Shown here: piece by piece, positions 6,275 to 42,498 of the stretch
Numbering within the stretch: position 1 is the first letter of the stretch
Layout: each line of letters starts with the position of its first letter
From: Prevotella sp.
Lineage (GTDB): Bacteria; Bacteroidota; Bacteroidia; Bacteroidales; Bacteroidaceae
Assembly: GCA_017475265.1 (NCBI GenBank)
Contig: JAFVFY010000074.1
Coordinates: forward strand, 1 to 57,034
Length of the DNA: 57,034 nucleotides
Direction: 5' to 3'
Program-made: the position numbers and the translations under genes
Notes under the pieces: model-generated
What the model was told of the DNA's origin: nothing
The model's database searches: none
Seen by the model: only the letters and a program-made list of their open reading frames with translations

Positions 6275-7699
6275 TTACGGATGTAGAAATGCAGCAACCT
6301 TTTGAGCGGTCTGCTTGCCGCTGGCCATAGCACGGACTACGAGGGAGGCACCATTCAGGGAGTCACCGCAAACGAAGACGTTCTCTGGATATGCAGGGTG
6401 TTCTGGTTTGAGGAATCCCATAGCGAGCAGACAGAGCTCGGCCTTGATGATTTCGGGCTTGCCTTTCTCGACCATGATGGGACGACCACCGGCGGGGTTG
6501 GGCTGCCAGTCGATTTCCTGGACGCGGACACCGGTGAGATGGCCGTCCTTGCCGAGGAACTCAAGGGTGTTGATGTTCCAACGACGGGTGCAGCCTTCCT
6601 CGTGCGAAGAAGTGGTCTTGAGGGTGCGGGGCCAGTTGGGCCAAGGGTTCTGCGGGTCTTCAGGGCCTTCGACGGGCTTGGGCATGATTTCAATCTGGGT
6701 GACGCTCTTGCAGCCCTGGCGATGAGCCGTTCCGATGCAGTCGGAGCCGGTGTCGCCGCCACCAATCACGAGGACATCCTTGCCCTTGGCGGTGATGCGT
6801 TCGTCCTTGGAGAACTCCATGCCGGCGAGGACGCGGTTCTGCTGAGAGAGCAGTTCGAGGGCGAAGTGAACACCTTTCAGCTCTCGACCAGGAGCTTTGA
6901 GGTCGCGTGCGGTGGGGGTGCCGGTGGCAATCACGACGGCAAACCCACCCCCATCCCCTCCCGAGGGGAGGGGCGTTTGGTCACCCAGAGCCTTGTTGAA
7001 TTCCTCGATAGAAAGGTAATCAAGCCCTCCGTCCCTCGGGGGGAGCTGGAGGGGGGTCTCGTAGCGGAACTCGATGCCCTCTTGCTCCATCAGCTTGATG
7101 CGGCGGTCGATGATGGCCTTGTTGAGCTTGAAGTTGGGGATGCCATAGCGGAGGAGTCCGCCGGCGGCTTCGTTCTTCTCGAAGACGGTGACGGTATAGC
7201 CCATCAGGTTCAGGTCGTTGGCGGCGGCGAGACCTGCGGGGCCAGCACCAATCACGGCCACCTTCTTGCCGTTACGTTGTATGTTGGTGCGCGGCTGGAT
7301 ATAACCCTCGCGGAAGGCAGCTTCGATGATAGCGGCTTCGTCCTCGCGGTTGGTTGTCGGCTCGTGGTTGAAACGGTTGAGCACACAGGCCTTTTCGCAC
7401 AAGGCAGGACAGATGCGGCCTGTGAACTCTGGGAAGGGGTTGGTCGAGGTAAGGAGCTTATAAGCCAGTTCCCAGTCGCCTTTATACAGGGCATCGTTCC
7501 ATTCGGGGGCCTTGTTGCCCAACGGACAGGCCCAGTGGCAGAAGGGTACGCCACAGTCCATGCAGCGAGAAGCCTGCAGCTTGCGTTCACGGGTGTTCAA
7601 CGTCTGTTCGACCTCACTGAAGTCGTGGATTCTATCTTGTATCGGACGATAACCAGCCTCCTGGCGGTGTATCTCTAAAAATGCTTTCGGATTTCCCAT
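6275..7699 (-). CDS. gltD: Glutamate synthase small subunit
   Basis: GltD passes electrons from NAD(P)H through FAD and iron-sulfur clusters to GltB, which makes two glutamates from glutamine and 2-oxoglutarate. Seen in the 474-residue protein: N-terminal cysteines C46, C49, C54, C58 and C97, C101, C105 for [4Fe-4S] clusters; FAD-binding GAGPAG at 151-156; NAD(P)H-binding GGGDTGSD at 313-320. Two GC-rich palindromic elements are translated in frame, around residues 214-225 (TPLQLPPRDGG) and 241-252 (TPLPSGGDGGGF), both in a loop before ATGTPTARDL. The gene follows gltB by 70 bp of AT-rich word repeats and closes the operon with a terminator. Confidence 0.93.
   Translation of the reverse strand: MGNPKAFLEIHRQEAGYRPIQDRIHDFSEVEQTLNTRERKLQASRCMDCGVPFCHWACPLGNKAPEWNDALYKGDWELAYKLLTSTNPFPEFTGRICPALCEKACVLNRFNHEPTTNREDEAAIIEAAFREGYIQPRTNIQRNGKKVAVIGAGPAGLAAANDLNLMGYTVTVFEKNEAAGGLLRYGIPNFKLNKAIIDRRIKLMEQEGIEFRYETPLQLPPRDGGLDYLSIEEFNKALGDQTPLPSGGDGGGFAVVIATGTPTARDLKAPGRELKGVHFALELLSQQNRVLAGMEFSKDERITAKGKDVLVIGGGDTGSDCIGTAHRQGCKSVTQIEIMPKPVEGPEDPQNPWPNWPRTLKTTSSHEEGCTRRWNINTLEFLGKDGHLTGVRVQEIDWQPNPAGGRPIMVEKGKPEIIKAELCLLAMGFLKPEHPAYPENVFVCGDSLNGASLVVRAMASGKQTAQKVAAFLHP
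6943..6978 (-). repeat. Palindromic element in gltD (second)
   Basis: CCCCTCCC-GAGGGGAGGGG core with GC-rich flanks. It is translated as TPLPSGGDGGG, i.e. in the orientation opposite to the clpX copy. Confidence 0.65.
7025..7060 (-). repeat. Palindromic element in gltD (first)
   Basis: CCCTCCGTCCC ... GGAGGGG imperfect palindrome, translated as TPLQLPPRDGG between two conserved parts of GltD. Confidence 0.5.
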
Positions 7700-7769
7700 T
7701 GCTATATTTGACTATTTTACTATTTCACTATTTACTATTTTCTTGCCAATTGTCTAATTGTCAAATAAA
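7700..7769. repeat. ACTATTT word repeat between gltB and gltD
   Basis: Tandem ACTATTT words (gACTATTTtACTATTTcACTATTT...) and two TTGTC(A/T)AAT words fill the spacer. Similar words (CAATTGTCAAAT.GTAAA) fill the recQ-nadK gap at 44719-44758. Confidence 0.5.
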
Positions 7770-10700
7770 TCAGTAGTCGCGCTGGATATCAGCAATCTTC
7801 TCGTGCAGTTTCTTCATCTGCTCTTCCTGGAGCACGCGCTTGTACTCGATGGGTACCACCTGGATGAACTCTGAGACATAGTGCTGCCAGTCATCGAGCA
7901 TACGTCCGGCCAAGGCCGAGCCTGTGTGCAGGTAGTGCTGACGGATAAGCTCGAGCAGCTCCTTACGGCTGACGCTGTCCTCGACGAGGTTGATTTCCAC
8001 CATATCCATATTGCAGAAGTAGTCGAAATTGTGCTTGCGATCCCAGACGTATGCTACACCACCACTCATACCAGCGGCGAAGTTACGGCCCGTCTCACCC
8101 AGCACGACGACACGCCCGCCAGTCATGTACTCGCAGCAATGGTCGCCAGCACCCTCGATGACTGCAATGGCACCTGAGTTGCGCACACCAAAGCGCTCGC
8201 CTACCTTTCCGTTGATATAGAGCTCGCCGGAGGTGGCTCCATAAAGGCCGGTGTTGCCGGCGATGATGTTATCCTCGGCATGGAAGTCCTCACCAGAGCG
8301 GGCAGGAGGAAGAATCGAGATACGACCGCCAGAGAGACCCTTGCCGAAGTAGTCGTTGCACTCGCCCTCGAGCTTCAGGTTGACACCCTTGACTGCAAAC
8401 GCGCCGAACGACTGGCCCGCCGAGCCTTTGAACTTGATGTTGATGGTGCCGTCGGGCAGTCCAGCCTCGCCGTATTTCTTCGCGATGATGCCTGAGAGCA
8501 TGGTGCAGACAGCGCGGTCGGTATTCTTGATGGCGTAGTCGAGTGTCACCTCCTCCTGGTTGTCGATGGCCTTTGCCGCAGCCTTGATAATCTCCTCGTC
8601 CTTGACGCCGGTGACCTTCGTAAACTGACCGCGGTCCCAGTAGTAGGCCACGCTTCCTTGCGTGGCAACGGGGTCGGTGCTCCCACGCTGGGAAGCGTGG
8701 GCTACTGCGGGCTGATGCAGCAGGCGGGCGAAGTCGATGGTGCGCCATTTGTCGGCGGCGGCGGTATTTCCAGAGGCTGATGCCTCTGGCACGGTGGTTT
8801 CTATGAGGTCTGTGCGCCCGATGATTTCCTTCAGCGAATGGACACCGATTTCGGCGAGGTACTCGCGCACCTGCTGGGCCAGGAAGGTGAAGAAGTTTAC
8901 CACGTACTCAGCACGACCTTCAAAGTGCTTGCGTAACTCCGGGTTCTGAGTGGCCACGCCCATCGGACAGGTATTGGTGTTACACTTACGCATCATCACG
9001 CAACCCAGCACAATCAGTGGAAGCGTGCCAAACGAGAACTCGTCGGCTCCCAGCATGGCCATGATAATCACGTCCTTGGCAGTCTTCAGCTGTCCGTCGG
9101 TCTGTAGGCGCACCTGATTGCGCAGACCGTTCATCACAAGTGTCTGCTGCGTCTCAGCGAGACCAATCTCGGGCGAAATACCCGCAAAGCGCATACTCGA
9201 CGCCGGGCTGGCACCCGTACCGCCCTCTGAGCCGCTAATGACGATAAGATCGGCCTTGGCTTTCGCCACACCAGCGGCGATGGTTCCTACGCCACTCTCG
9301 GCTACCAGCTTCACGCTCACGGCGGCGGTTGGGTTGATATTCTTCAGGTCGAAGATGAGCTGTGCCAGGTCCTCGATACTGTAAATGTCGTGATGAGGTG
9401 GAGGCGAGATGAGCGAGATGCCGGGGATGGCATTACGTGTCTTGGCGATGATTTCGTTGACCTTGAAGCCAGGCAGCTGTCCTCCCTCACCAGGCTTCGC
9501 ACCCTGTGCCACCTTTATCTGAATCTCCTCAGCATTCACCAGATACTCGGCTGTCACGCCGAAACGCCCACTGGCAATCTGCTTGGTTTTTGAGCTCAGG
9601 CTAACGCCGTCTACTTCTGTGTGATAGCGGGCGTTATCTTCACCACCCTCACCAGTATTAGATCGTGTGCCCAGCTTGTTCATGGCCAGAGCCAAAGCCT
9701 CGTGGGCCTCGATGCTCAGCGCACCAAAGCTCATGGCACCGGTAACAAAGTGCTTCACGATGCTCTCCACAGGCTCCACCTCGTCGATAGGTGTGGGCTT
9801 GGCAGCCTTCTTGAATTTGAAGAAGTCTCGGATGAATATAGGTAATTCCTTCTCGTCAACGATGGCTGCCCACTGCTTGAACTTCTCATAGTTTCCTTGT
9901 CTGGTGGCCAGCTGTAACTGAGCTATCGTCTCTGGGTTCCAGGCATGCTTGATGCCGTCCTTACGCCAGGCAAACAGTCCCTGGTTCTTCAGCATGGTCT
10001 GCTCCTTAGCCTGTTCTTGCAGTCGGATAGCATCGCGGGCAATCTCCTTCAGCCCGATGCCGCCGATGGTGCTCACCTCTGTACCGAAGTAACGGCTCAG
10101 CAGGTCTTCGCTCAGTCCGATGCTCTCGAAAATCTTAGCTCCACGATATGAGCGGATGGTCGAGATACCCATCTTCGACATAATCTTCTTGAGGCCTTTA
10201 TCCACCGCCTTGATATAGTGGCTTTCTGCCGTAGCATACTCCTCCTGAATCTTTCCTTTCTTCACCAAATCGTCGAGGATGGCGAAGGTCATATACGGAC
10301 AGAGTGCGCTGGCACCATAGCCCAGCAGCAAAGCCGCATGCATGTTCTCGCGAATCTCGCCGCTTTCTACAATCAAGGCGGTCTGTACGCGCTTGCCTAC
10401 GCTAATCAGATAGTGGTGGACGGCAGAGACTGCCAGGAGGGATGGGATGTAGAAACCTTCCCCCTGCCCCTCCAAAGGAGGGGTGATTTCTACCTTGTCG
10501 GTTAGGATGATGTAGTTTACACCCTCATCCACGCTAGCCTCCGCATCCTTACATAATTTGTCAAGAGCATTGCGCAGCCGCTCCCCTCCTTTGGAGGGGC
10601 CAGGGGAGGCGACCATCGCCAGCTTCTTCGTCTTGAATCCCTTATACCTTATGTTGCAAAGAATATCCAGCTGCGTGTTGGTCAATACTGGTTGTGGCAG

Positions 10701-12443
10701 ACGAACCATTTTGCAGTTCGAGGCATCGGGCGTCAGGATGTTGGTTCCTACGGCACCTATGTACTCCGTCAGACTCATCACCAGCTCCTCGCGAATGGGG
10801 TCGATGGCAGGATTGGTGACCTGTGCAAACTGCTGACGGAAATAGTTGAACAACACCTGTGGACGGTCTGAGATAACTGCCAGCGGCGTGTCGTTACCCA
10901 TAGCTGCTACAGGCTCCTGACCGGCTGTGGCCATTGGGATGATGGTCTTGTCAATATCCTCCTGACCAAAACCGAAGGTGACGAGCTTCTGCTCTAAGTC
11001 CTTTACGCCGTTCTCCACGTGTCGGCCACTCTTCAGCTTCTCCAGTTGAACACGGTTCTCGCTCAGCCACTCGCGGTAGGGATGAGCCTTGGCCAGCTTT
11101 TCCTTTATCTCGCCGTCGTAGTAAATCTTTCCCTCCTGCGTGTCAATCAGCAGAATCTTACCTGGCTGCAACCGACCTTTGCTCACCACGTCGCCTGGCT
11201 CGAAGTCCATCACGCCAACCTCCGAGGCTACCACCATCATACCCTGCTTCGTAATGGTATAACGGCTGGGGCGCAGACCGTTTCTGTCCAACATTCCTCC
11301 TGCATAGCGACCATCGGAGAATAACAGGGCGGCAGGGCCGTCCCAAGGCTCCATCAAAATGGAGTGATACTCGTAGAACGCCTTCAAGTCCTCACTAATC
11401 GGGTTCTTGTCGTTGAAGCTCTCAGGCACCAGAATGGCCATCGCCTGGGGCAACGAGAGTCCACTCAACATGAGGAATTCAAAGACATTATCCAACGAAG
11501 CACTATCGCTCATGCCCTCCTGTACAATCGGCCTCAAGTCTTTGATGTTACCCAGTGCCTCGCTGTTCAGCACGCTCTCACGGGCCTTCATCCATCCGCG
11601 ATTACCCCGAATGGTGTTTATCTCGCCGTTGTGAGCCAACAAGCGGAAAGGCTGGGCCAGTTTCCATTTGGGGAATGTGTTTGTGCTGAATCGGGAGTGA
11701 ACCAGCGCCAGTCCGCTTGTAAAGTATTCGTTAGACAGGTCAGGGAAGTAGCGACGTAGCTGTCCGCTGGTCAGCATACCCTTATAGATGATATTCTTGC
11801 TCGAAAGCGAGCAGATATAGAAATCCTCATTAAAGATGCGGTTTTCAATCCTCTTCCTTATTTTATATAATGTACGCTCGAAAGCCTTTTCCTCTTCGTC
11901 CGGATTGTAATCACTTCCTTCTCCCCTTGAAGAGGGGCCAGGGTTAAGGCTTCTCTTCACGAAAATCTGCTTGATGGCTGGCTCTACCTCACGAGCCCCA
12001 GCCCCCAGCACCTCTGGGTTCGTAGGCACGGCGCGCAGATGCATCAGCGTCAGTCCCTCGCGCTCAATCTCCTCTATCATCACGGAGAGAATTTCCTGCT
12101 GGGACTTCTCGTCCTTCGGCAGGAACACCAATCCAGTACCATACTTTCCCTTCTCAGGCACGGGAATGCCCTGCAACAAGATAAACTCGTGGGGAATCTG
12201 AACCATGATACCAGCACCGTCGCCAGTCTTGTCGCGTGTCTCGGCTCCGCGATGCTCCATGTTTTCCAGCACCTTCAAGGCGTTGTCCACTAGTTCGTGA
12301 CTCTTGCCGCCGTGGATGTTCACTACCATTCCCACGCCGCAGGCATCGTGCTCGTACTGGCTCTGATAAAGTCCTTTCTGCGAACCTTGTGCGCTCTGTT
12401 CGCCCTGTGTGCTCTGTGTTGTTTGAAGTTTACATTTTGTCAT
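7770..12443 (-). CDS. gltB: Glutamate synthase large subunit
   Basis: The protein has 1557 residues when started at MTKCKLQTTQ (12443); the longer frame to 12515 would run through the promoter and is unlikely. The order is standard: class II glutamine amidotransferase domain (nucleophile Cys35 in EHDACGVG, after a 34-residue propeptide to be removed), central domain, FMN/2-oxoglutarate synthase barrel (GEGGEDNARYH; GSEGGTGASP), Fe-S cysteines (CVMMRKCNTNTCPMGVATQ), and C-terminal GXGXG beta-helix (GGRISILPP ... NTGLYGATSG). It is longer than usual because of repeats translated in frame: a CACAG-word repeat in the propeptide, three GGAGGGG palindromes, one two-hairpin element and one small palindrome. 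It is the first gene of the gltBD operon and diverges from amtB1. Confidence 0.93.
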   Translation of the reverse strand: MTKCKLQTTQSTQGEQSAQGSQKGLYQSQYEHDACGVGMVVNIHGGKSHELVDNALKVLENMEHRGAETRDKTGDGAGIMVQIPHEFILLQGIPVPEKGKYGTGLVFLPKDEKSQQEILSVMIEEIEREGLTLMHLRAVPTNPEVLGAGAREVEPAIKQIFVKRSLNPGPSSRGEGSDYNPDEEEKAFERTLYKIRKRIENRIFNEDFYICSLSSKNIIYKGMLTSGQLRRYFPDLSNEYFTSGLALVHSRFSTNTFPKWKLAQPFRLLAHNGEINTIRGNRGWMKARESVLNSEALGNIKDLRPIVQEGMSDSASLDNVFEFLMLSGLSLPQAMAILVPESFNDKNPISEDLKAFYEYHSILMEPWDGPAALLFSDGRYAGGMLDRNGLRPSRYTITKQGMMVVASEVGVMDFEPGDVVSKGRLQPGKILLIDTQEGKIYYDGEIKEKLAKAHPYREWLSENRVQLEKLKSGRHVENGVKDLEQKLVTFGFGQEDIDKTIIPMATAGQEPVAAMGNDTPLAVISDRPQVLFNYFRQQFAQVTNPAIDPIREELVMSLTEYIGAVGTNILTPDASNCKMVRLPQPVLTNTQLDILCNIRYKGFKTKKLAMVASPGPSKGGERLRNALDKLCKDAEASVDEGVNYIILTDKVEITPPLEGQGEGFYIPSLLAVSAVHHYLISVGKRVQTALIVESGEIRENMHAALLLGYGASALCPYMTFAILDDLVKKGKIQEEYATAESHYIKAVDKGLKKIMSKMGISTIRSYRGAKIFESIGLSEDLLSRYFGTEVSTIGGIGLKEIARDAIRLQEQAKEQTMLKNQGLFAWRKDGIKHAWNPETIAQLQLATRQGNYEKFKQWAAIVDEKELPIFIRDFFKFKKAAKPTPIDEVEPVESIVKHFVTGAMSFGALSIEAHEALALAMNKLGTRSNTGEGGEDNARYHTEVDGVSLSSKTKQIASGRFGVTAEYLVNAEEIQIKVAQGAKPGEGGQLPGFKVNEIIAKTRNAIPGISLISPPPHHDIYSIEDLAQLIFDLKNINPTAAVSVKLVAESGVGTIAAGVAKAKADLIVISGSEGGTGASPASSMRFAGISPEIGLAETQQTLVMNGLRNQVRLQTDGQLKTAKDVIIMAMLGADEFSFGTLPLIVLGCVMMRKCNTNTCPMGVATQNPELRKHFEGRAEYVVNFFTFLAQQVREYLAEIGVHSLKEIIGRTDLIETTVPEASASGNTAAADKWRTIDFARLLHQPAVAHASQRGSTDPVATQGSVAYYWDRGQFTKVTGVKDEEIIKAAAKAIDNQEEVTLDYAIKNTDRAVCTMLSGIIAKKYGEAGLPDGTINIKFKGSAGQSFGAFAVKGVNLKLEGECNDYFGKGLSGGRISILPPARSGEDFHAEDNIIAGNTGLYGATSGELYINGKVGERFGVRNSGAIAVIEGAGDHCCEYMTGGRVVVLGETGRNFAAGMSGGVAYVWDRKHNFDYFCNMDMVEINLVEDSVSRKELLELIRQHYLHTGSALAGRMLDDWQHYVSEFIQVVPIEYKRVLQEEQMKKLHEKIADIQRDY
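8643..8706 (-). repeat. Two-hairpin coding element in gltB
   Basis: Two hairpins, CCCACGCTTCCCAGCGTGGG (8682-8701) and GCCACGCAAGGAAGCGTGGC (8647-8666), are translated as VAHASQRGS ... QGSVAYYW. The same arrangement, at DNA and protein level, sits in carA at 34580-34640. Confidence 0.65.
8770..8789 (-). repeat. Small palindrome in gltB
   Basis: CCAGAGGC-TGAT-GCCTCTGG, a perfect 8-bp stem, translated as part of VPEASASGNT. It lies 60 bp upstream, in coding direction, of the two-hairpin element, in a variable part of the protein. Confidence 0.45.
10456..10484 (-). repeat. Palindromic element in gltB (copy 3)
   Basis: CCCCTCCaaaGGAGGGG core plus a CCTTCCCCCTG arm, read as TPPLEGQGEGF; the orientation is opposite to the copy at 10581. 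Confidence 0.7.
10581..10610 (-). repeat. Palindromic element in gltB (copy 2)
   Basis: CCCCTCCtttGGAGGGG core with CAGGGGAGG arm, read in frame as ASPGPSKGGERL. Confidence 0.7.
11913..11949 (-). repeat. Palindromic element in gltB (copy 1)
   Basis: CTCCCCTTgaAGAGGGG core with an outer CTTCCTT ... AAGG arm, read as LNPGPSSRGEGSD in the amidotransferase domain. Confidence 0.65.
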
Positions 12444-12484
12444 ATTATCCTTACTTTTACTTTCTCTTTGTCTGATTTCGGCTG

Positions 12485-12516
12485 CAAAGGTAATGCAAAC
12501 TGCTTGTATACACAAA
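12485..12516 (-). promoter_or_regulatory. gltB promoter
   Basis: Minus strand: TTTG (12513-12516), 20-bp spacer, TACCTTTG (12485-12492). The ATG at 12443 lies about 36 nt downstream of the predicted start. The nitrogen motif found at the other promoters is not obvious here. An inverted ATCATTTTG/CAAAATGAT pair (12557-12596) lies in the divergent region shared with amtB1. Confidence 0.7.
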
Positions 12517-12594
12517 GAAATTCTGTCTTTTTTAATCCTTAATCAACCAGCAACTATCATTTTGTAACTATACGTGGTACTTTTAAGTCAAAAT

Positions 12595-12610
12595 GATAAC
12601 AAAATGCAAC
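12595..12610 (+). promoter_or_regulatory. GATAACA-type motif upstream of amtB1
   Basis: GATAACAAAATGCAAC. A similar string, GATAACAGTTTG(T/C)AAC, lies upstream of glnK (from 17807) and glnN (from 20622). Confidence 0.4.
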
Positions 12611-12650
12611 TTATGGACACAAAAACATTTACACTTTGATATTTGTACGC

Positions 12651-12673
12651 GTTTTTAACAATCAAAACGTAAG
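12651..12673 (+). promoter_or_regulatory. Nitrogen-regulon motif upstream of amtB1
   Basis: GTTTTTAACAA + T + CAAAACGTAAG. It ends 31 bp before the -7 box, the same distance as at glnK and glnN. A second shared block (TTTACACTTTGATATTTGT, from 12628) lies directly upstream, as at glnK. Confidence 0.65.
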
Positions 12674-12680
12674 TAATCCT

Positions 12681-12711
12681 TTTGAATAACCATCGAAAGA
12701 ATATACCTTTG
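12681..12711 (+). promoter_or_regulatory. amtB1 promoter
   Basis: TTTG (12681-12684), 19-bp spacer, TACCTTTG (12704-12711). Confidence 0.7.
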
Positions 12712-12757
12712 CAGCCGATTTGTAGCAATGTGTAAAATACTAAATAGGTTATAAGGT

Positions 12758-14143: not shown

Positions 14144-14164
14144 TAATCAACTAAAAGAAGTTAT

Positions 14165-14342
14165 CTACATTATTCATGGCAATTGATAAAACAACGGATT
14201 AAAACTGATTTCACGGATTTTCACGGATTATTTAAATCTCCTCATCGAATTTGGAAGAAATCTGTGAAATCCATTATAATCAGTAAAATCCGTGTAATCC
14301 GTAAAATCCGTTGTTGAAAAAAGAATGAATAATCCAAGTTAA
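14165..14342 (+). repeat. AACAACGGATT palindromic repeat, copy 1
   Basis: A ~178-bp non-coding repeat, over 90% identical by eye to 24522-24700. Its ends are AACAACGGATT (14190-14200) and its complement AATCCGTTGTT (14305-14315); inside are many ACGGATT words in both orientations, so the RNA can fold on itself. The whole 211-bp amtB1-pyrG gap consists of this element, which ends just before the pyrG ribosome site. Confidence 0.7.
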
Positions 14343-15980
<1,638 letters not shown>

Positions 15981-16008
15981 ATCGTAAATTTGGAAATAGT
16001 AAATCAAC

Positions 16009-18033: not shown

Positions 18034-18381
18034 ATGAAAAAGATTGAAGCAATTATCCGCAAGACGAAGTTCGATGAGGTGAAAGCTGCTTTGCTATCAT
18101 CCGACATCGACTGGTTTGAGTACCACGACGTGCATGGCATCGGGCAGAGCCGTCAGGAGCGTATTTATCGTGGAGTTCAGTATTCTACCGATGTCATTGA
18201 ACGAGTAGCCATTACCATCGTGTGCCGAGACATTTTCCTCGACCCAACGGTGAAGGTGATTCTGAAGGTAGCCCATACGGGTGAGGTTGGCGATGGCCGC
18301 ATCTTCGTGAGCGGCGTGATAGACACGTGGTCTATCCGCACGGGCGAGAACGGCGACACCGTACTGAGAGACAAGAAGTAA
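18034..18381 (+). CDS. glnK: Nitrogen regulatory protein P-II
   Basis: This 115-residue P-II protein senses 2-oxoglutarate and ATP/ADP and plugs Amt channels. Seen: MKKIEAIIRKTKFDEVKAAL (first beta-alpha), T-loop region GIGQSRQERIYRGVQYSTDV, whose tyrosine in GVQY matches the residue uridylylated in E. coli, and the nucleotide-binding signature AHTGEVGDGRIFVSGV ... IRTGENGD. Whether it is modified here is unknown, since no uridylyltransferase is in view. The gene leads glnK-amtB2-porin, the typical P-II/Amt pairing, and its start follows an AAGGTAAAAAGGT ribosome site. Confidence 0.92.
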   Translation: MKKIEAIIRKTKFDEVKAALLSSDIDWFEYHDVHGIGQSRQERIYRGVQYSTDVIERVAITIVCRDIFLDPTVKVILKVAHTGEVGDGRIFVSGVIDTWSIRTGENGDTVLRDKK

Positions 18382-18520
18382 CGACCTCCCCCGACCCCTC
18401 CAAAGGAGGGGAGAACAACACCACCCCTTACAAAAGAGGGGAGAAAAACAACACAACACAAACACAAATTCACAACCCCGTACCTCCGTTCGGGTTCCCC
18501 CTCCTTAGGAGGGGGTAAGG
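18382..18520 (+). repeat. Inverted palindromic elements between glnK and amtB2
   Basis: The 154-bp spacer holds a forward copy (ACCTCCCCC-GA-CCCCTCC-AAA-GGAGGGG, 18383-18412), a half copy (CCCCTT..AAGAGGGG, about 18422-18441) and a reverse copy (about 18494-18528, ending GTAAGGGGGAGGT). Copies one and three can pair into a long stem enclosing ~80 nt, which may reduce amtB2 expression relative to glnK or stabilise the message. The string CAACACAAACACAAATTC (18454-18471) recurs exactly in dapF at 32202-32219. Confidence 0.65.
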
Positions 18521-18535
18521 GGGAGGTCATATATT

Positions 18536-31915: not shown

Positions 31916-32803
31916 ATGCAAGATATGGGCAAGATAAAGTTCACCAAGATGCACGGCTGCGGCAACGACTACATTTACGTCAACACCATGCAGTATCCCA
32001 TTGCCGACCCCGCGAAGGCTGCTATCCTTTGGAGCGACCGCCACAAAGGCATCGGTTCCGACGGGCTGGTACTGATTGGTGCATCGCCTATACCCGAGGC
32101 TGACTACAGTATGCGCATCTTCAATACCGACGGTTCAGAAGCGATGATGTGCGGCAACGCTTCACGGTGTATCGGAAAATATCTCTACGAGAGGGCTATC
32201 ACAACACAAACACAAATTCGATTGCTCACAAATTCGGGCATCAAGACGCTCACCCTCCACGTCAGTAGCCTACCCCTCGCCCCCTCTACAGAAGGTGAGG
32301 GGTGTGGTTGCACTCAAGTGGTGGAGAGCGTTACCGTTGACATGGGCGAGCCTCAATTCGAGAACATAGATCAGTTTCTCCCGTCACGTGGACTCAACAA
32401 AGGCTTCTTCGTCTCGATGGGCAACCCCCACTATGTCATCTTCACCGACAATGTGGACCAGGTGGGCGACACGGGCAGCAAGCTGGAGTTTCATCCGGCC
32501 TTCCCACAACGCTGCAACATCGAGTTTGCCCAAGTTACCGACCCCACCCCTACATGGGAGGGGAGCGGCCACACCGTCATCCGCACACGAGTCTGGGAAC
32601 GTGGTAGCGGCATCACCCAGGCCTGTGGCACAGGTGCTTGTGCAACGGCCGTCGCCGCCGCCCTCACCAACCGCGCCTCCCGTCGTTCCCTCATCGTCAT
32701 GGACGGCGGTACTCTCGACATAGAGTGGCGCGAGAGCGACAACCACGTCTATATGACTGGCCCCGCCGAATTTGTATTCGACGGTGAGGTCGAAATATCG
32801 TAA
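31916..32803 (+). CDS. dapF: Diaminopimelate epimerase
   Basis: DapF turns LL- into meso-diaminopimelate for lysine and peptidoglycan. Seen in 295 residues: [51 protein letters not shown] (first catalytic Cys), [30 protein letters not shown] (second catalytic Cys in ACGTGA). Two palindromic elements are translated between conserved blocks ([13 protein letters not shown] and [12 protein letters not shown]), plus an ACACAAACACAAATTC word shared with the glnK-amtB2 spacer. ATG 31916 or 31925 (MGKIKFTKM) could be the start. dapL follows, so the pair makes meso-DAP by the aminotransferase route. Confidence 0.92.
32270..32307 (+). repeat. Palindromic element in dapF (first)
   Basis: TACCCCTCGCCCCCTCTACA-GAAGGTGAGGGGTGT, translated [13 protein letters not shown]. 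Confidence 0.65.
32540..32568 (+). repeat. Palindromic element in dapF (second)
   Basis: CCCCACCCCTacatGGGAGGGG, translated [10 protein letters not shown] just before the conserved [10 protein letters not shown] block. Confidence 0.6.
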
Positions 32804-34104: not shown

Positions 34105-34124
34105 AGTTCGAACTGCGCCCAATT

Positions 34125-37007
34125 ATGGAAAGAAAGCAAGCAAAACTGATACTTAGCGACGGCACGGAGTTCCAAGGCTGGTCGTTTGGATACGACGGAG
34201 AGGCTGTGGGCGAGGTGGTCTTCAACACGGCAATGACAGGCTATCCTGAGAGTCTGACAGACCCCAGCTATGCAGGACAGATATTGGTGACAACCTTTCC
34301 ACTGATAGGAAATTATGGAGTGCCAGACCTCTCCCCCAGCCCCTCTCCCAAAGGAGGGGCTGTGAGTAAGGTTTTACCCGTTCTGGAAAGCGAGCACATT
34401 CACCCTAAAGCACTAGTCGTAGCTGACTATAGCGAGCAGTATTCCCACTGGAACGCCAAGGAATCGTTGGCAGCATGGCTGAAACGCGAAAAGGTTCCTG
34501 GAATAACAGGGATTGACACACGGCGTTTGACGAAGGTGCTCAGAGAGCACGGTGTGATGATGGGCAAGGTGGAGATAGTGGGTCACGCTTCCAAGCGTGA
34601 CAACTCCGCCGCTACAACGCTCGGAAGCGTTGCCCACTACAACTACGGAAGCGTGAACTGGGTGGAGCAGGTGAGCTGCAAGGAAGTGATTACCTACAAC
34701 GAAGGTACTGGCAAGCGTGTCGTTTTGGTAGACTGCGGGGTGAAGGCAAACATCATCCGTTGTCTCATCCGACGTGGTGTTGAGGTTATCCGTGTGCCTT
34801 GGGACTATGATTTCAATCAGTTAGACTTCGACGGTCTCTTTCTTGCCAATGGTCCTGGCGACCCAGAACAATGCGACAAGACTGTGGAGCATATCCGTAC
34901 ATTTCTTAATAATGAGACAGTACGTCCCTGTATGGGCATCTGCTTGGGCAACCAATTGCTGGCACGTGCAGCTGGAGCCAAGACATACAAGCTGAAATAC
35001 GGCCACCGTTCGCACAACCAACCCGTTCGCCAGGTGGGTACGAACCGCTGCTTCATCACAAGCCAGAACCACGGCTACGCAGTGGATGACTCGACGCTGC
35101 CAGAGGACTGGGAACCGCTCTTTGTCAATATGAACGATAGTTCTAACGAGGGCATCCGCCACAAGACGAATCCCTGGATGTCGGCACAGTTTCACCCAGA
35201 GGCCTGTTCGGGGCCAACCGATACGGAATGGATGTTTGACGAGTTTGTGAAAAGCCTCAGAGGCCTCACCCCCGCCCCCTCTCCACTTGGAGAGGAGAGT
35301 ATACACATCCAAGGCGGAGGTGAGGTTTCTAAGGTTCTCATTCTTGGTAGCGGTGCCCTGAAGATTGGCCAGGCCGGTGAGTTTGACTATAGTGGAGCAC
35401 AGGCATTGAAAGCCCTAAAGGAAGAGGGCATCCACTCGGTGCTCATCAATCCGAATATCGCCACGGTACAAACCTCAAAGGATGTGGCCGACACAGTATA
35501 TTTCCAACCCGTGACGGCAGAGTTCGTGGAGCGCGTCATAGAGAAGGAACGTCCTGACGGTATTCTGTTGTCGTTTGGTGGACAGACGGCCTTGAACTGT
35601 GGCGTGGAGCTCTACGAAAAAGGTGTTTTGGAAAAATATGGCGTCAAAGTGTTAGGCACTCCCGTGCAGGCTATCATCGACACGGAAGACCGCGACCTGT
35701 TTGTGAAACGTCTCGACGAGATTGGCGTAAAGACCATCAAGAGCGAGGCATGCTCTACCGTCGAAGAAGTTCAGAAAGCAGCTCACGAATTAGGATTCCC
35801 TGTGATATTACGAGCCGCTTATGCCCTCGGCGGTCTTGGTTCAGGCTTCTGCGACAACGACGAAGAACTATTGACACAGGCCGAAGAAGCCTTCTCGTTC
35901 TCGCCGCAGGTACTCGTGGAAAAGAGCCTGAAGGGATGGAAGGAAATAGAGTACGAGGTGGTGCGCGACCGCTTTGACAACTGTATCACCGTCTGCAACA
36001 TGGAAAACTTCGACCCGCTTGGCATTCATACCGGTGAGAGCATCGTCGTAGCACCAAGCCAGACGCTGACCAACGCCGAATACCATAAGCTGCGTGCGCT
36101 GGCCATCAAGATTATACGTCATATCGGCATCGTCGGCGAGTGTAACGTCCAGTATGCCCTCGACCCCAACAGCGAGGACTACCGCGTCATCGAGGTCAAT
36201 GCCCGACTGTCGCGCTCCAGCGCATTGGCCAGCAAGGCCACAGGCTATCCTTTGGCCTTCGTCGCTGCCAAGCTCGGTCTCGGCTACGGACTCTTCGACC
36301 TGAAGAACAGCGTCACCAAGACAACCTCTGCCTTCTTTGAGCCAGCCCTTGACTACGCGGTAGTGAAAATACCCCGCTGGGACCTTTCGAAGTTCCACGG
36401 TGTGAACCACGAACTGGGCTCCAGCATGAAGAGCGTAGGCGAGGTGATGGCCGTGGGGCGCACCTTCGAGGAGGCGTTACAGAAAGGGTTGCGCATGATT
36501 GGACAGGGCATGCACGGTTTTGTGGACAACAAAGCTCAGCATGTAACCGATATTCCTGCTGCCCTGCAGCATGCTACGGACACCCGCATCTTTGTTGTGT
36601 CCAAGGCCCTACAGATGGGCTATAGTGTAGAACAAATACATGGGTTCACCAAAATAGACCGTTGGTTCTTACAGAAGCTGAAACACATCATCACCATAAA
36701 CGACCAGTTGAAGGAGTACCAGCATCTTTCTGAGTTCTCGGAGTACATGGAGACCAGCGAATTTATGGAGTACTTGCGGTCTCCCGAAGTGTTCCAATTG
36801 CTTCACGCCGCCAAGGTATACGGCTTCTCCGACTTCCAGATAGCCCGCGCCATAGGGTTGGAGAATCGCATGAAGATGGAGCAGGCCGGACTTACCGTCC
36901 GCAAATGGCGTAAGGAACTCGGCCTCGTCCCCACCGTCAACCAGATTGACACCCTCGCCGCAGAATATCCTGCCCAAACCAATTACCTCTACCTCTCTTA
37001 TTTATAA
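34125..37007 (+). CDS. carA: CarA fused to the N-terminal half of CarB
   Basis: Carbamoyl phosphate synthase feeds pyrimidine and arginine synthesis. ATG 34125 gives 960 residues. 1-~385 is CarA: LILSDGTEFQGWSFG, GIDTRRLTKVLREHG, nucleophile Cys273 in MGICLGNQLLA, and SAQFHPEA. 386-402 is a linker made by a palindromic repeat (LTPAPSPLGEES..). 403-960 is CarB: VLILGSGALKIGQAGEFDYSG, the ATP-grasp domain (GGQTALNCGVEL ... RAAYALGGLGSG ... EVNARLSRSSALASKATGYPLA), and the oligomerisation part ending IDTLAAEYPAQTNYLYLSY. Then one Leu and TAA. The second ATP-grasp (carbamate-phosphorylating) half and the regulatory domain, ~500 residues, are absent, and word repeats follow the stop. carA also holds two coding elements. 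A genuine deletion, a half-size enzyme working as dimers, or a mis-assembly are possible. Confidence 0.85.
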   Translation: MERKQAKLILSDGTEFQGWSFGYDGEAVGEVVFNTAMTGYPESLTDPSYAGQILVTTFPLIGNYGVPDLSPSPSPKGGAVSKVLPVLESEHIHPKALVVADYSEQYSHWNAKESLAAWLKREKVPGITGIDTRRLTKVLREHGVMMGKVEIVGHASKRDNSAATTLGSVAHYNYGSVNWVEQVSCKEVITYNEGTGKRVVLVDCGVKANIIRCLIRRGVEVIRVPWDYDFNQLDFDGLFLANGPGDPEQCDKTVEHIRTFLNNETVRPCMGICLGNQLLARAAGAKTYKLKYGHRSHNQPVRQVGTNRCFITSQNHGYAVDDSTLPEDWEPLFVNMNDSSNEGIRHKTNPWMSAQFHPEACSGPTDTEWMFDEFVKSLRGLTPAPSPLGEESIHIQGGGEVSKVLILGSGALKIGQAGEFDYSGAQALKALKEEGIHSVLINPNIATVQTSKDVADTVYFQPVTAEFVERVIEKERPDGILLSFGGQTALNCGVELYEKGVLEKYGVKVLGTPVQAIIDTEDRDLFVKRLDEIGVKTIKSEACSTVEEVQKAAHELGFPVILRAAYALGGLGSGFCDNDEELLTQAEEAFSFSPQVLVEKSLKGWKEIEYEVVRDRFDNCITVCNMENFDPLGIHTGESIVVAPSQTLTNAEYHKLRALAIKIIRHIGIVGECNVQYALDPNSEDYRVIEVNARLSRSSALASKATGYPLAFVAAKLGLGYGLFDLKNSVTKTTSAFFEPALDYAVVKIPRWDLSKFHGVNHELGSSMKSVGEVMAVGRTFEEALQKGLRMIGQGMHGFVDNKAQHVTDIPAALQHATDTRIFVVSKALQMGYSVEQIHGFTKIDRWFLQKLKHIITINDQLKEYQHLSEFSEYMETSEFMEYLRSPEVFQLLHAAKVYGFSDFQIARAIGLENRMKMEQAGLTVRKWRKELGLVPTVNQIDTLAAEYPAQTNYLYLSYL
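34327..34366 (+). repeat. Palindromic element in carA
   Basis: CCTCTCCCCCAGCCCCTCTC + CCAAAGGAGGGGCTG, translated DLSPSPSPKGGAVS. Confidence 0.7.
34580..34640 (+). repeat. Two-hairpin coding element in carA
   Basis: GTCACGCTTCCAAGCGTGAC (34582-34601) and CAACGCTcggAAGCGTTG (34615-34632), translated VGHASKRDNS ... LGSVAHYNY; it matches the gltB element at 8643-8706 in order, spacing and encoded peptide. Confidence 0.65.
35264..35325 (+). repeat. Palindromic element forming the CarA-CarB linker
   Basis: Outer arms CCTCACCCCCGCC and GGCGGAGGTGAGG enclose an inner CTCTCC-acttGGAGAG hairpin. It sits exactly at the domain border and carries no stop in the carA frame. Confidence 0.65.
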
Positions 37008-37040
37008 TCGGAATAACGAAAAACGAAATAGCGAATAATT
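37008..37040 (+). repeat. Word repeat after the truncated carB
   Basis: CGGAATAACGAAAAACGAAA + TAGCGAATAATT, related to 32803-32871. It starts right after the premature carB stop and may be the trace of the deletion. Confidence 0.5.
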
Positions 37041-38780
37041 ATGTGTGGAATCGTAGCAATATTAAACGTCAAGGAGCAGACGCATGAGCTCCGCGAGAAA
37101 GCATTGAGAATGAGTCAGAAAATCCGTCATCGCGGACCTGACTGGAGTGGAATATATTGTGGTGGGAGCGCTATCCTGGCCCACGAGCGACTGAGCATCG
37201 TCGATCCAGAATCGGGTGGCCAGCCGTTGTACTCACCCGACCGCAAACAAGTGCTTGCCGTGAACGGCGAAATATATAACCATCAGGAGATTCGTCGCCG
37301 TTATGCCGGTCAGTACGAGTTCCAGACGGGCAGCGACTGCGAGGTTATCCTTGCACTCTATAGGAGCCTCACCTCCAGCTCATCTTCAAATGGAGAGGGC
37401 TTCACTCATGAGCAGATATGCCACATGCTAGAGCAACTTAGCGGCATCTTTGCCTTTACTCTCTATGACGAGGAGCGCAACGAATATCTGATAGCCCGCG
37501 ACCCCATCGGAGTGATACCCCTATATATCGGCTACGACAGCGACGGCACCGTATATGTCGCCTCCGAGCTGAAGGCGCTCGAAGGACAATGTGAACGCTA
37601 CGAGCCATTCCTGCCTGGACACTATGTCACGAGTAAGGACAACACGGTACACCGCTATTACAAGCGTGACTGGTTCGACTATGATGCCGTGAAGGACAAT
37701 CCTGCTTCGGTCGAAGCTATCCGTGATGGACTTACCGCTGCCGTCAAACGCCAGCTCATGTCTGACGTACCCTACGGCGTGCTGCTCTCTGGAGGTCTCG
37801 ACTCCAGCGTCATCTCAGCCCTTGCCGAGAAATTCAGCGAACACCGCATCGAAGATGACTCGAAGACCCGCGCCTACTGGCCACGTCTGCACTCCTTTGC
37901 CGTCGGCCTGAAAGGTGCTCCTGACCTCGCCAAGGCAAAGATGGTGGCCGACCATATCGGCACCGTACATCACGAAATCAACTACACCATACAGGAGGGT
38001 CTTGATGCCATCCGCGATGTCATCTACTTCATCGAGACCTACGACGTCACCACCGTCCGCGCCTCTACGCCGATGTACCTGTTGGCACGTGTCATCAAGT
38101 CGATGGGTATCAAGATGGTACTCAGCGGTGAGGGTGCCGATGAAATCTTTGGTGGTTATCTCTATTTCCACAAGGCTCCCAACGCCCAGGCCTTCCACGA
38201 GGAGACCGTCCGCAAGCTCGGCAAACTCTATCTCTACGACTGTCTCCGCGCCAACAAGAGTCTTTCGGCTTGGGGAGTGGAGGGTCGCGTACCTTTCCTC
38301 GACAAGGAGTTCCTCGACATCGCCATGCGTACCAATCCTGAAGCCAAGATGTGCGGCCCGAAGAAATCTGGAATATCCGAACAATCTGGTTTCGAAATCG
38401 AAAAGAAGATTGTCCGCGAAGCCTTCGCCAACATGTTGCCCGCCGAAGTCGCTTGGCGACAGAAAGAGCAGTTCAGCGATGGCGTCGGCTACTCCTGGAT
38501 TGACACCCTCAAGCAACTAACCTCCGAGGCCGTCACCGACGAGCAAATGGCTCATGCCGCAGAGCGATTCCCCATCAACCCACCGAAAAACAAAGAGGAG
38601 TACTACTACCGCAGCATCTTCGCCGAGCATTTCCCCAGCGACTCAGCTGCCCGCTCAGTCCCATCGGAAGCCTCCGTCGCCTGTTCCACCGCCATAGCCC
38701 TTGAATGGGATGCTGCCTTCAAGGGCATGAACGATCCCAGCGGCCGCGCCGTCAAAGGCGTGCATGAACAGGCATATTAG
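37041..38780 (+). CDS. asnB: Asparagine synthase (glutamine-hydrolysing)
   Basis: AsnB makes asparagine from aspartate, ATP and glutamine. The product has 579 residues. Class II amidotransferase domain: Cys2 (MCGIVAIL), KIRHRGPDWSG, NGEIYNHQEIR, GSDCEVILALY. Synthetase domain: pyrophosphate loop VLLSGGLDSSVIS, then LSGEGADEIFGGY, EGRVPFLDKEFLD, WRQKEQFSDGVGYSWID. A palindrome-derived insertion, SLTSSSSSNGEGFTHEQ, lies in the amidotransferase domain around residue 115. It follows the half-carB after 33 bp and ends 4 bp from the convergent esterase stop. Ammonia-related neighbours fit the amide theme. Confidence 0.93.
   Translation: MCGIVAILNVKEQTHELREKALRMSQKIRHRGPDWSGIYCGGSAILAHERLSIVDPESGGQPLYSPDRKQVLAVNGEIYNHQEIRRRYAGQYEFQTGSDCEVILALYRSLTSSSSSNGEGFTHEQICHMLEQLSGIFAFTLYDEERNEYLIARDPIGVIPLYIGYDSDGTVYVASELKALEGQCERYEPFLPGHYVTSKDNTVHRYYKRDWFDYDAVKDNPASVEAIRDGLTAAVKRQLMSDVPYGVLLSGGLDSSVISALAEKFSEHRIEDDSKTRAYWPRLHSFAVGLKGAPDLAKAKMVADHIGTVHHEINYTIQEGLDAIRDVIYFIETYDVTTVRASTPMYLLARVIKSMGIKMVLSGEGADEIFGGYLYFHKAPNAQAFHEETVRKLGKLYLYDCLRANKSLSAWGVEGRVPFLDKEFLDIAMRTNPEAKMCGPKKSGISEQSGFEIEKKIVREAFANMLPAEVAWRQKEQFSDGVGYSWIDTLKQLTSEAVTDEQMAHAAERFPINPPKNKEEYYYRSIFAEHFPSDSAARSVPSEASVACSTAIALEWDAAFKGMNDPSGRAVKGVHEQAY
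37366..37406 (+). repeat. Degenerate palindromic element in asnB
   Basis: CCTCACCTCCAGCTCATCTT..AAATGGAGAGGGCTTC, translated SLTSSSSSNGEGF. It is worn but keeps the CCTCAcC ... GGAGAGGG layout. Confidence 0.5.
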
Positions 38781-38784
38781 GGTA

Positions 38785-40365: not shown

Positions 40366-40376
40366 TAATTCTGCCG

Positions 40377-40407
40377 CAAAATTAACAAAAAGTGCCGATT
40401 TGGCAAA
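40377..40407 (-). promoter_or_regulatory. Carboxylesterase promoter
   Basis: Minus strand TTTG (40404-40407), 19-bp spacer, TAATTTTG (40377-40384), very close to the start codon, so the leader is short. Confidence 0.65.
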
Positions 40408-40501
40408 ATAATCGGCTACTATTTTGCCATATCAATGAATTTTATATTACCATTTAATGTTTTTTAGGGAAAAATTTTTCAGCAATCTCGTTTATTTTGC
40501 T

Positions 40502-40509
40502 TAATTTTG
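40502..40509 (+). promoter_or_regulatory. clpP promoter -7 box
   Basis: TAATTTTG with no clear TTTG at the -33 position. The leader to ATG 40582 would be about 65 nt. Confidence 0.45.
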
Positions 40510-40581
40510 TATCTGCTTTTATAAGACAGAGATAACAAAACCAACCTTTGTTTGCCTATATTGACACGCAAAACATTGATT

Positions 40582-41244
40582 ATGAACGACTTTAGAAAAT
40601 ATGCAACACAGCACTTGGGCATGAATGGCCTGGTGCTCGACGATGTGATGAAGGCGCAAGCCCAGTACCTTAACCCCTACATCCTTGAGGAACGTCAATT
40701 GAACGTGACGCAGATGGATGTTTTTTCACGCCTGATGATGGACCGCATCATCTTCCTCGGCACTCAGATTGACGACTACACCGCCAACACGCTACAGGCG
40801 CAGTTGCTCTATCTGGATAGCGCCGACCCTGGAAAGGACATCAGTATCTACATCAACTCGCCTGGCGGTAGCGTACATGCCGGACTTGGCATTTACGACA
40901 CCATGCAGTTCATTTCCTCTGACGTGGCCACCATCTGCACGGGTATGGCAGCATCAATGGCCGCCGTGCTCCTCGTGGCAGGACAGGAGGGCAAGCGCTC
41001 TGCACTACCCCACAGCCGCGTGATGATTCACCAGCCACTTGGTGGTGTGCAGGGTCAGGCATCAGACATGGAGATTGAGGTGAAGCAGATACAAATACTG
41101 AAGAAGGAACTCTACACCATCATTGCCGAACACTCGCACACCGACTTCGACAAGGTGTGGGCCGACTCCGACCGCAACTACTGGATGACGGCCGAGGAGG
41201 CAAAGGAGTATGGAATGATAGACCAGGTGCTGAAGAAGAAGTGA
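40582..41244 (+). CDS. clpP: ATP-dependent Clp protease proteolytic subunit
   Basis: ClpP is the chambered serine protease partner of ClpX. The product has 220 residues from MNDFRKYATQHLGMNG (40582); the frame extends upstream but that part is not conserved. Catalytic Ser125 is in GMAASMAAVL and His150 in RVMIHQPLGG, with YINSPGGSVHAGLGIYD forming the oxyanion strand and the ERxLxxT-type hydrophobic pocket region near FLGTQIDDY. clpX starts 15 bp later, so both are made from one message. The trigger factor gene that often precedes clpP is not present. Confidence 0.94.
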   Translation: MNDFRKYATQHLGMNGLVLDDVMKAQAQYLNPYILEERQLNVTQMDVFSRLMMDRIIFLGTQIDDYTANTLQAQLLYLDSADPGKDISIYINSPGGSVHAGLGIYDTMQFISSDVATICTGMAASMAAVLLVAGQEGKRSALPHSRVMIHQPLGGVQGQASDMEIEVKQIQILKKELYTIIAEHSHTDFDKVWADSDRNYWMTAEEAKEYGMIDQVLKKK

Positions 41245-41259
41245 GTTAGGGGGCTCAGA

Positions 41260-42498
41260 ATGAAAAAGACATGTAATTTCTGCGGTCGGTCAGACCGCGA
41301 GGCAAAGCTGCTCATAACGGGTATCAACGGCTTTATATGTGAGGAATGTGCACAGCAGGCCTATCAGATAGTGGTGCAGCAAGGACTCATAGAAGGAACC
41401 TCCCCCAACCCCTCCAAAGGAGGAGGCAAGGGCAATGGGAAGTTCAATCCCCGCAACGTGCCCAAGCCGATGGAAATCAAGGCTTATCTGGACCAGTACA
41501 TCATCGGTCAGGACGAGGCGAAACGATATATGTCCGTAGCCGTCTACAACCACTATAAGCGATTGGGACAGCCTGTGGACAAGGACGGTGTGGAGATTGA
41601 GAAAAGTAATATAATAATGGTGGGAAGTACTGGCACGGGAAAGACGCTCATGGCGCGCACCATCGCCAAGCTACTCGACGTACCCTTTACCATCGTCGAT
41701 GCCACGGTGTTCACCGAGGCGGGATATGTGGGCGAGGACGTGGAAAGCATTCTTACCCGTCTGCTCCAAGTGGCCGACTTCGACGTGGAAGCTACACAGC
41801 GCGGCATCGTGTTCATCGACGAGATTGACAAGATTGCACGTAAGCAGGACAACCCGTCCATCACCCGCGACGTTTCTGGTGAAGGCGTGCAGCAGGGATT
41901 GCTGAAACTGTTGGAGGGAACCAACGTGAACGTGCCGCCAAAGGGCGGACGTAAGCATCCCGACCAGGAGTATATCTCCGTGGACACACGCAACATTCTC
42001 TTCATCTGCGGAGGAGCCTTCGACGGTATCGAACGGAAGATAGCACAGCGACTGAATACCCACACCGTGGGCTACAACTCGGTGCAGAACGTACGCAAGA
42101 TAGACAAGAACGACCTGATGAAGTATGTGTCGCCACAAGACCTGAAGAGTTTCGGACTCATACCAGAAATCATCGGCCGTCTGCCAGTGCTGACATACTT
42201 GAATCCTTTGGACCGCGAAGCTTTGGAGCGCATCCTCGTGGAGCCGAAGAATAGCATCGTCCGACAATATCAGAAACTGTTCCAGATGGACGGCATAGAG
42301 TTGACGTTCACGCCCGAGGCGAAGAAGGTGATCGTAGACAAGGCCGTGGAGTACAAGCTCGGGGCCCGCGGACTGCGCTCCATCGTGGAGAGCGTGATGA
42401 TGGATGCCATGTTTGAGGTGCCGTCGAAAAAGACCAACAAGTTTGAAGTGACAGCGAAGTATGTCGAGGAACAGCTGGCAAAGTCACACTTAGAGTAG
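41260..42498 (+). CDS. clpX: ATP-dependent Clp protease ATP-binding subunit
   Basis: ClpX unfolds tagged proteins and feeds them to ClpP. The product has 412 residues. The zinc-binding dimerisation domain uses C5, C8, C27 and C30. Next is a palindrome-encoded linker insertion ([16 protein letters not shown], 46-61), then the AAA+ domain: Walker A GSTGTGKT (122-129), pore loop GYVG, Walker [10 protein letters not shown], arginine-rich [15 protein letters not shown], and sensor 2 [13 protein letters not shown]. The insertion lies in the flexible linker between zinc domain and motor, where extra length should be harmless. It is followed 36 bp later by recQ. Confidence 0.94.
41397..41430 (+). repeat. 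Palindromic element in clpX
   Basis: ACCTCCCCCAACCCCTCCAA + AGGAGGAGGCAAGG, translated [12 protein letters not shown]. It is the copy closest to the intergenic version at 18383. Confidence 0.75.

Follow-up and report, generated by a model that had tools for sequence, protein, structure and literature searches.

Tagged hairpin repeats with the sequence signature of an intrastrand triplex lie in frame within housekeeping genes of a Prevotella genome and recur across Bacteroidota

A 57,034-nucleotide contig of Prevotella sp. (GenBank JAFVFY010000074.1; the window hereafter, meaning the whole stretch of DNA that was analysed) carries a short GC-rich repeat, with CCCCTCC and GGAGGGG arms, inside several of its housekeeping genes. 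What kind of element is this, and how does it come to be translated there? The original prediction, made from the window, described a palindromic family read in frame in the manner of Rickettsia palindromic elements. The analysis points to intrastrand-triplex repeats of Bacteroidota that would spread at the DNA level and whose copies mostly keep the frame of their hosts in tolerant loops and linkers, a reading to which we give a probability of roughly 0.68.

The repeat family is real and genome-wide. Exact cores occur 35 times in the own genome of the window, against 0 for a reversed control pattern. A covariance model built on 16 copies (15 exact-core copies and the one in clpX) gives at least 134 matches at E ≤ 1, among which 43 fall below 1e-3; the E-values are rough, and since scoring covered 150 of the 2926 first-look candidates, the true count may be higher. 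The whole-genome covariance search proposed with the original prediction thus finds the family beyond the window. Of the 134 copies, 112 were examined (60 regions plus the window), and the 22 omitted are among the weaker ones. Within the window, the core CCCCTCCNNNGGAGGGG has 11 matches at no more than 3 mismatches, in 10 places (two overlap at 6955), where 1.87 are expected; 0 of 100 shuffled windows reach 11.

Twenty exact copies share the directional consensus [AG]CCTCCCC-CNN-CCCCTCC-RAA-GGAGGGG, often followed by AG. The unit is laid out as 5′-[AG]-tag-CNN-stem-loop-stem′, and its tag mirrors the pyrimidine arm of the stem. A single copy is asymmetric: it carries one tag only, at the 5′ side of the C-rich strand, and not the symmetrical outer arms first described. 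The element is likewise not primarily the palindrome that had been proposed but a tag plus a hairpin, with the mirror symmetry of an intrastrand triplex motif; its G-rich strand reads C-arm, loop, G-arm, 3-nt loop and G-rich tail. Subtypes were sorted by eye: A has the consensus CCTCCCC tag and CCCCTCC stem, B the tag CCCACCCC and stem CCCCTCCC, C the tag CCCTCCCC and D the tag CCCCACCCC, with rarer subtypes besides. Units stand singly, in tandem or in inverted pairs with tags outward. Tags point outward in 30 of 34 neighbour pairs and inward in 0, and six 117-bp copies in the own genome have inverted-repeat ends around a short core.

Some arrangements are more elaborate. One histidine kinase open reading frame (ORF) of the own genome (L179 2201-2362, contig C119) contains four copies, of which three follow one another in tandem, 39 bp apart; all four are translated, as PPSPDPSKGGEII repeats. 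Two similar ORFs (L192 and L198, near 2201) carry the same element (LLKNKSLPNPSKGGALEPVLPL) in apparently the same place. The single-contig congener G016 has tandem arrays at 44-bp spacing (G016:C1 294893-295101 and 371735-371899). In congener G026 (L271-L290), the copies are often succeeded by a GCCTAACGG-like sequence, and together with GCCTCACCCC-type elements they make up long intergenic mosaics.

The relation between tag and stem carries the argument. In most of the common stem types, the tag is the pyrimidine arm of the stem written backwards, 3 nt upstream, with T sometimes changed to A. Where the stem T is shifted, the T or A of the tag shifts mirror-wise, also in searches that left the tag open. 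At spacers of 2-4, perfect mirror tags accompany 197 of 216 CCCCTCC stems (tag CCTCCCC), 49 of 61 CCCCTCCC stems (the B tag), 19 of 21 CCCCTCTCC stems (tag CCTCACCCC), 14 of 20 CCTCCCC stems (tag CCCCTCC or CCCCACC), 7 of 8 CCCCCTCC stems, 6 of 6 CTCCCCC stems (tag CCCCCTC) and 4 of 6 CCCCTCCCT stems. Over 456 sites with a 3-nt spacer, the tag base opposite a stem T is T in 268 cases, A in 129, C in 124 and G in 21, that is, T or A in 73%; opposite a stem C, T or A is found in 7.5%. The share of T or A opposite T is 19.5% on average, and 23% at most, when stems are shuffled. It is 12-16% when the mirror alignment is made at spacers 1, 2 and 4, and 11%, 12% and 25% for direct-order alignment at spacers 2, 3 and 4.

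Tag-open searches with two stems covered 296 Bacteroidota genomes, of which 9 and 21 matched. They gave 19 rows and, among the matches listed, 96; the upstream side was C-rich in 11 and 51. Among these C-rich-sided rows the mirror tag is found in 10 of 11 and 41 of 51, versus 0 and 12 for the direct word, a word being counted anywhere in the 12 upstream bases so that longer stems let some rows match both. By genome, the mirror tag appears in 7 of 8 and 14 of 19, again among the matches listed.

The purine motif permits G on G-C and, at A-T, either A or T, which agrees with the observed degeneracy, and a pyrimidine motif on the opposite strand would not tolerate A. The mirror tag and its T/A degeneracy match the base rules of an antiparallel triple helix of the purine motif formed by the G-rich strand, and the repeats have the architecture of a purine-motif (class II) intrastrand triplex, certain stem types discussed below excepted. 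Mirror repeats would be expected neither to arise from strand copying nor to serve ordinary base pairing. Covariation over many stem types is evolutionary evidence, at the level of sequence, that a putative third strand is kept to match its stem, and the repeats are predicted to fold as triplexes.

The same mirror could serve the G-tetrads of a folded-back or dimeric G-strand, which would make these G-quadruplex or i-motif repeats. The G strand GGAGGGGNNGGGGGAGG does contain four G runs, archaeal repeats with a triplex-capable fold are described as turning into a quadruplex (PMC8044849), and a possible competing quadruplex is named for TM-ECO, an E. coli repeat motif (PMC4666352). An A at the mirror position would, however, bring a quadruplex no gain, and with its GG runs it could stack no more than two tetrads. 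A purine-motif triplex, by contrast, needs such an A/T degeneracy opposite A and a fixed 3-nt loop, and nuclear magnetic resonance (NMR) of the E. coli motif spoke for the triplex over the quadruplex (PMC4666352). A quadruplex origin of the mirror is consequently quite improbable in our estimate.

Triplex-type repeats of this kind are widespread. Exact cores were found in 15 of 35 congeners searched, at 1 to 46 copies each, and in 2 of 24 genomes from other genera of the same order. In named genomes, the tagged pattern occurs in at least 118 stretches, some genomes contributing more than one; judged by genome titles, 117 of the 118 listed come from Bacteroidota. Carriers listed include Prevotella, Segatella, Hoylesella, Flavobacterium, Maribacter, Chitinophagaceae, Prolixibacteraceae and others, so that the family is not special to Prevotella-like bacteria. 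The only stretch outside the phylum among the matches listed is L118, from Paenibacillus phyllosphaerae.

In the window, the following copies were distinguished, by the core scan (no more than 3 mismatches), by the covariance model or by direct reading:

6941..6975, + strand: B-type element (tag CCCACCCC, stem CCCCTCCC) in gltD, antisense to the gene, read TPLPSGGDGGGF; model
7024..7060, - strand: degenerate second gltD element, read TPLQLPPRDGGLD; read directly, weak, outside the core matches and the model list
10453..10485, + strand: A-type element in gltB, antisense to the gene, read ITPPLEGQGEGF; core match and model
10581..10613, - strand: A-type element in gltB, sense, read VASPGPSKGGE; core match and model
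about 11923..11937, no strand assigned: degenerate third gltB copy; weak, outside the core matches and the model list
18381..18413, + strand: A-type element, intergenic, in the gap between glnK (P-II) and amtB; core match and model
18424..18441, no strand assigned: degenerate hairpin CCCCTTACAAAAGAGGGG in the glnK-amtB gap; core scan
18496..18530, - strand: element with tag CCTCCCCC and stem CCCCCTCC in the glnK-amtB gap; model
32270..32305, no strand assigned: degenerate dapF element, three core mismatches at 32281; weak, not in the model list
32540..32566, no strand assigned: element-like core in dapF, one mismatch (32547), no tag at the usual distance; weak, not in the model list
34326..34361, + strand: carA element, read DLSPSPSPKGGA; model, E 0.12
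about 35263..35325, + strand: CarA-CarB junction element, tag CCTCACCCC, within one ORF (LTPAPSPLGEESIHIQGGGE); second half decayed, missed by the model
41395..41427, + strand: A-type element in clpX, between the zinc domain and the AAA+ domain; model

The elements at 18381 and 18496 form an inverted pair with tags outward, and Pfam confirms GltB, GltD, DapF, CarA/CarB, AsnB, AmtB, P-II and ClpX. Of the copies named in the original prediction, one in gltD, two in gltB and those in carA, at the carA-carB junction, in clpX and in the glnK-amtB gap stand. Both dapF copies, the third in gltB and the second in gltD are weak, and the asnB copy is not confirmed: asnB (37041-38780) has no GC-rich hairpin with a stem of at least 6, and its translation contains no such peptide. 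The concentration in glutamine-using genes, suspected from the start to reflect the window, looks like such an effect, as 20 hosts hand-chosen genome-wide are of many kinds. At 34125-37007, a 960-aa ORF comprises CarA and only the N-terminal half of CarB, its Pfam matches stopping at the oligomerisation domain CPSase_L_D3; three congeners have open frames of 975-1030 aa at their CarA match.

Genes are hardly avoided. Ninety of the 112 copies examined, and 39 of the 43 strongest, lie inside ORFs, where the coding fraction of the same regions is 0.856; 80 of the 90 are at least 90 bp from both ORF ends. Relative to the host ORF, 46 copies are sense and 44 antisense. Such indifference to genes and to orientation in this genome argues for an element that acts at the DNA level. 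Terminators, attenuators or processing hairpins working in RNA, and present in genes by happenstance, would also be GC-rich hairpins, and some copies are indeed intergenic. The absence of an orientation bias and the large intragenic share, most of it remote from ORF ends, make this account very improbable.

The hosts of these DNA-level repeats are recognisable genes. Pfam families match 19 of the 20 hand-chosen host ORFs at E ≤ 1e-10, and hosts include IleRS, TyrRS, RF3, DnaG, Mfd, UvrA, Lon, ClpX, PIF1 helicase, HsdM and GH115; in-frame placement in housekeeping genes, first noticed in the window, is found genome-wide. The claim that the frame is always kept holds for the copies in ORFs, a definition into which it is partly built. 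When the piece around the element was used as query, the genome gave a single close match (93-100% identity), the element-bearing copy itself, for 7 of 7 hosts (IleRS, TyrRS, ClpX, RF3, DnaG, Mfd and Lon), and the other matches were distant or were further element copies. Compared with solved homologues, the TyrRS insert amounts to seven residues extra (6n0w), the ClpX element follows the zinc domain in a stretch longer than in 9ndj, and the Lon insert falls between the aligned AAA+ block and the protease block. Intact ORFs with no second close copy suggest that the host proteins are probably functional.

Sense copies prefer one reading phase. In the own genome their phases are distributed 32:5:9 (p about 1e-6), and in named Bacteroidota loci 21:2:2 (n = 25, among at least 118 loci). 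Among the matches listed, 47 of 136 exact copies in the named loci are inside ORFs of at least 150 aa, and the antisense copies of this set are also biased (15:5:2). For subtype A, the favoured sense phase gives hydrophilic peptides. Each of the six inverted pairs is exactly 117 bp long and in frame within one ORF. Purifying selection is not seen on their inner peptides, for which pN/pS is 0.95 in the reading frame against 0.66 and 1.08 in the other two; the added peptide thus looks like filler, not a conserved functional peptide, and would be tolerated by its host proteins.

Relatives differ at the same sites. When 11 hosts were aligned codon by codon with 40 loci of congeners, the variable loop at the element site proved shorter or different in the congeners. 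Perfect GC-rich hairpins occupy the same host site in 3 of the 40 loci (TyrRS in G034 and two gltB copies of G034), and hairpin density is 5 in 3,713 bp at these sites versus 5 in 27,155 bp elsewhere. By eye only, other congener loops look like decayed elements. A Prevotella metagenome-assembled genome, L104, whose GltB is 89% identical, bears an A element at the gltB site of 10581..10613. Two alignments of G003 with G026 suggest a short tag remnant in G003 where G026 has 312 or 168 bp; these remnants could be deletion scars, and partial deletions of inverted pairs are reported for the E. coli motif (PMC4666352). The two gltB copies of G034 (L247 and L248) have element sites with two different hairpin families.

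Natural variable linkers that turned GC-rich by drift, with no insertion at all, would likewise be found in variable loops and, as in the six 117-bp pairs, would lack purifying selection. Yet the same sequence recurs in unrelated genes and phylum-wide, and where this genome has the element, congeners lack it or in some places have another hairpin family, which renders drift scarcely credible.

How, then, might a triplex repeat multiply? Single-stranded DNA, at the replication fork or under supercoiling, would let the G-rich strand fold. A Watson-Crick hairpin would form first; past the 3-nt loop, the 3′ G-rich tail would then lie antiparallel on the purine arm. Units would spread at the DNA level irrespective of gene orientation, and replication-linked mechanisms acting on folded single strands would fit this spread best. 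Most visible copies would be net insertions that keep the frame, in tolerant loops and linkers, and selection would retain the least harmful reading phase; visible copies would mostly keep the frame because landing in genes roughly follows the coding fraction in this genome. A bolder version, which we offer only tentatively, holds that the triplex fold itself is preserved: selfish units, recognised, copied or inserted through their single-stranded fold by a putative trans-acting enzyme, would by their turnover at permissive loops keep rewriting the linkers of essential Bacteroidota proteins.

Alternatively, these could be REP/REPIN repeats moved in trans by a Y1 (RAYT) tyrosine transposase, in which case the tag would play the GTAG role and the inverted pair would be the mobile unit. 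The combination of tag and hairpin, the outward tags of neighbour pairs, published intragenic REPs including dimers (PMC3733652) and three PF01797 matches in the own genome all suit this explanation. However, no PF01797 match at E ≤ 0.001 was found in congeners G003, G019 and G026, although their exact cores number 37, 38 and 46; the 32 best-match Y1 loci, many of them from element-free genomes, likewise contain no element at E ≤ 1. The best Y1 gene of the own genome (L016) is flanked by another repeat, and GTAG/CGTC is inconsistent at element ends, with at most 7 of 112 for any motif at one end. Membership of the RAYT/REPIN system was dropped because Y1 matches were missing from the element-rich congeners, elements from the Y1 loci and consistent GTAG/CGTC from the ends; we regard it as unlikely. 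The L016 gene (1344-2078, own genome contig C37) is a Y1/IS200-type transposase ORF with a 199-aa open frame, set between 120-nt inverted repeats that are 89% complementary; the flanking repeat has GCCCCGAAGGGGC and GGGGGTG..CCCCC hairpins, in a REPtron-like layout.

Several observations weigh against triplex repeats that spread as in-frame insertions. As parsed, some stems fail the mirror rule (CTCCCC 4 of 16, CCCCTC 5 of 13, TCCCCTCC 0 of 5, CCCTCC 0 of 4, and CTCCCCT too); for CTCCCC, 8 of 10 C-rich-sided sites inspected turn out to be B elements for which the parse took a longer loop. In genomes G109 and G117, stems occur that lack a mirror tag. The CCCCTCC class, 216 of the 456 sites, was partly retrieved by a pattern already holding the mirror tag; without this class, the mirror order is found at 145 of 223 sites and the direct order at 20 (letter-palindromic stems omitted). 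For TM-ECO, no protection from dimethyl sulfate of the kind a triplex would give was seen in vivo (PMC4666352). Antisense phases in the own genome are unbiased (10:17:17). The net gain is smaller than the element in TyrRS (+7 aa) and in RF3 (+2 aa versus four of five relatives, +6 versus one), so that insertion with loss of host bases, or replacement, is more likely than simple clean insertion, unless the loops were rewritten later. No clean empty site with exact ends was obtained between G003 and G026 in the 4 alignments inspected out of 15 BLASTed region pairs. Finally, the ORF caller behind the intragenic counts is home-made and had the window as its training set; in G026 1 of 31 sampled elements is inside a called gene, a mostly intergenic look that is rough, as the caller marked only 22% of the regions coding there. 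By eye, at least three G026 copies (L274, L280 and L284) are in or overlap ORFs. Translation of the copies may not be general outside the own genome.

In E. coli, intrastrand triplex repeats are known, but clear evidence for a cellular role of their fold is not. The present repeats serve as a natural experiment, genome-wide, from which the sites where essential enzymes tolerate extra peptide can be read, and they account for odd stretches, such as PPLEGLGEA, that annotators and structure predictors meet in Bacteroidota proteins.

Several known systems share parts of this picture. Miniature inverted-repeat transposable elements (MITEs) likewise have inverted-repeat ends around a short core; for the present repeats, a search that was not exhaustive found no transposase partner or target duplication. 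With GTAG/CGTC REPs (PMC3733652) and REPINs they share short tagged hairpins that occur singly and as inverted dimers. Genes reported to contain REPs include uvrA and those of helicases and tRNA synthetases; dimers or groups that lie inside genes encode 20-30 aa, and CGTC repeats are reported from five phyla, one of them Bacteroidetes (PMC3733652). The difference is that the Bacteroidota repeats have no consistent GTAG/CGTC tag (at most 7 of 112 at the ends), that no RAYT association was found in three congeners and 32 best-match loci, and that their tag mirrors the stem. The resemblance to Rickettsia palindromic elements (RPEs), drawn in the original prediction, holds for behaviour: both are palindromic repeats in frame in many likely functional genes. 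RPEs are described as ending in CGTC (PMC3733652), and the Bacteroidota repeats do not. In-frame Rickettsia elements and intragenic REPs are already published (PMC3733652), as are triplex-capable archaeal repeats, which are intergenic (PMC8044849). No open-licence literature was found that unites in-frame and triplex repeats or describes triplex repeats in Bacteroidota, and "Bacteroid*" is absent from the main text of PMC4666352.

The closest parallel is TM-ECO/PIT. TM-ECO has the consensus CCCTCNCCCN3-6GGGNGAGGGN3GGGNGAGGG, that is, CCCTCNCCC-N3-6-GGGNGAGGG-N3-GGGNGAGGG, and folds as a triplex in vitro by circular dichroism and NMR (PMC4666352). It is reported to be always intergenic in MG1655, to be present in 262 proteobacterial genomes and to vary widely in copy number among close strains, and no adjoining transposase was found. 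The Bacteroidota repeats resemble it in their C-stem, loop of 3-6 nt, G-stem, exact 3-nt second loop and G-rich third strand with a variable position, as well as in their inverted pairs, uneven copy number among close relatives and lack of any transposase found beside them. They do not fit its consensus, as the main family has the 7-nt stem CCCCTCC, and a related CCCCTCTCC type occurs in G026, like the one at window 35263. Nor are they confined to intergenic DNA, with 90 of 112 copies in ORFs. Where TM-ECO has one 9-nt consensus, Bacteroidota have many stem types with covarying third strands. This covariation over many stem types is new, as are the phylum-wide set and, in one genome, the high share of copies within ORFs, essential genes included.

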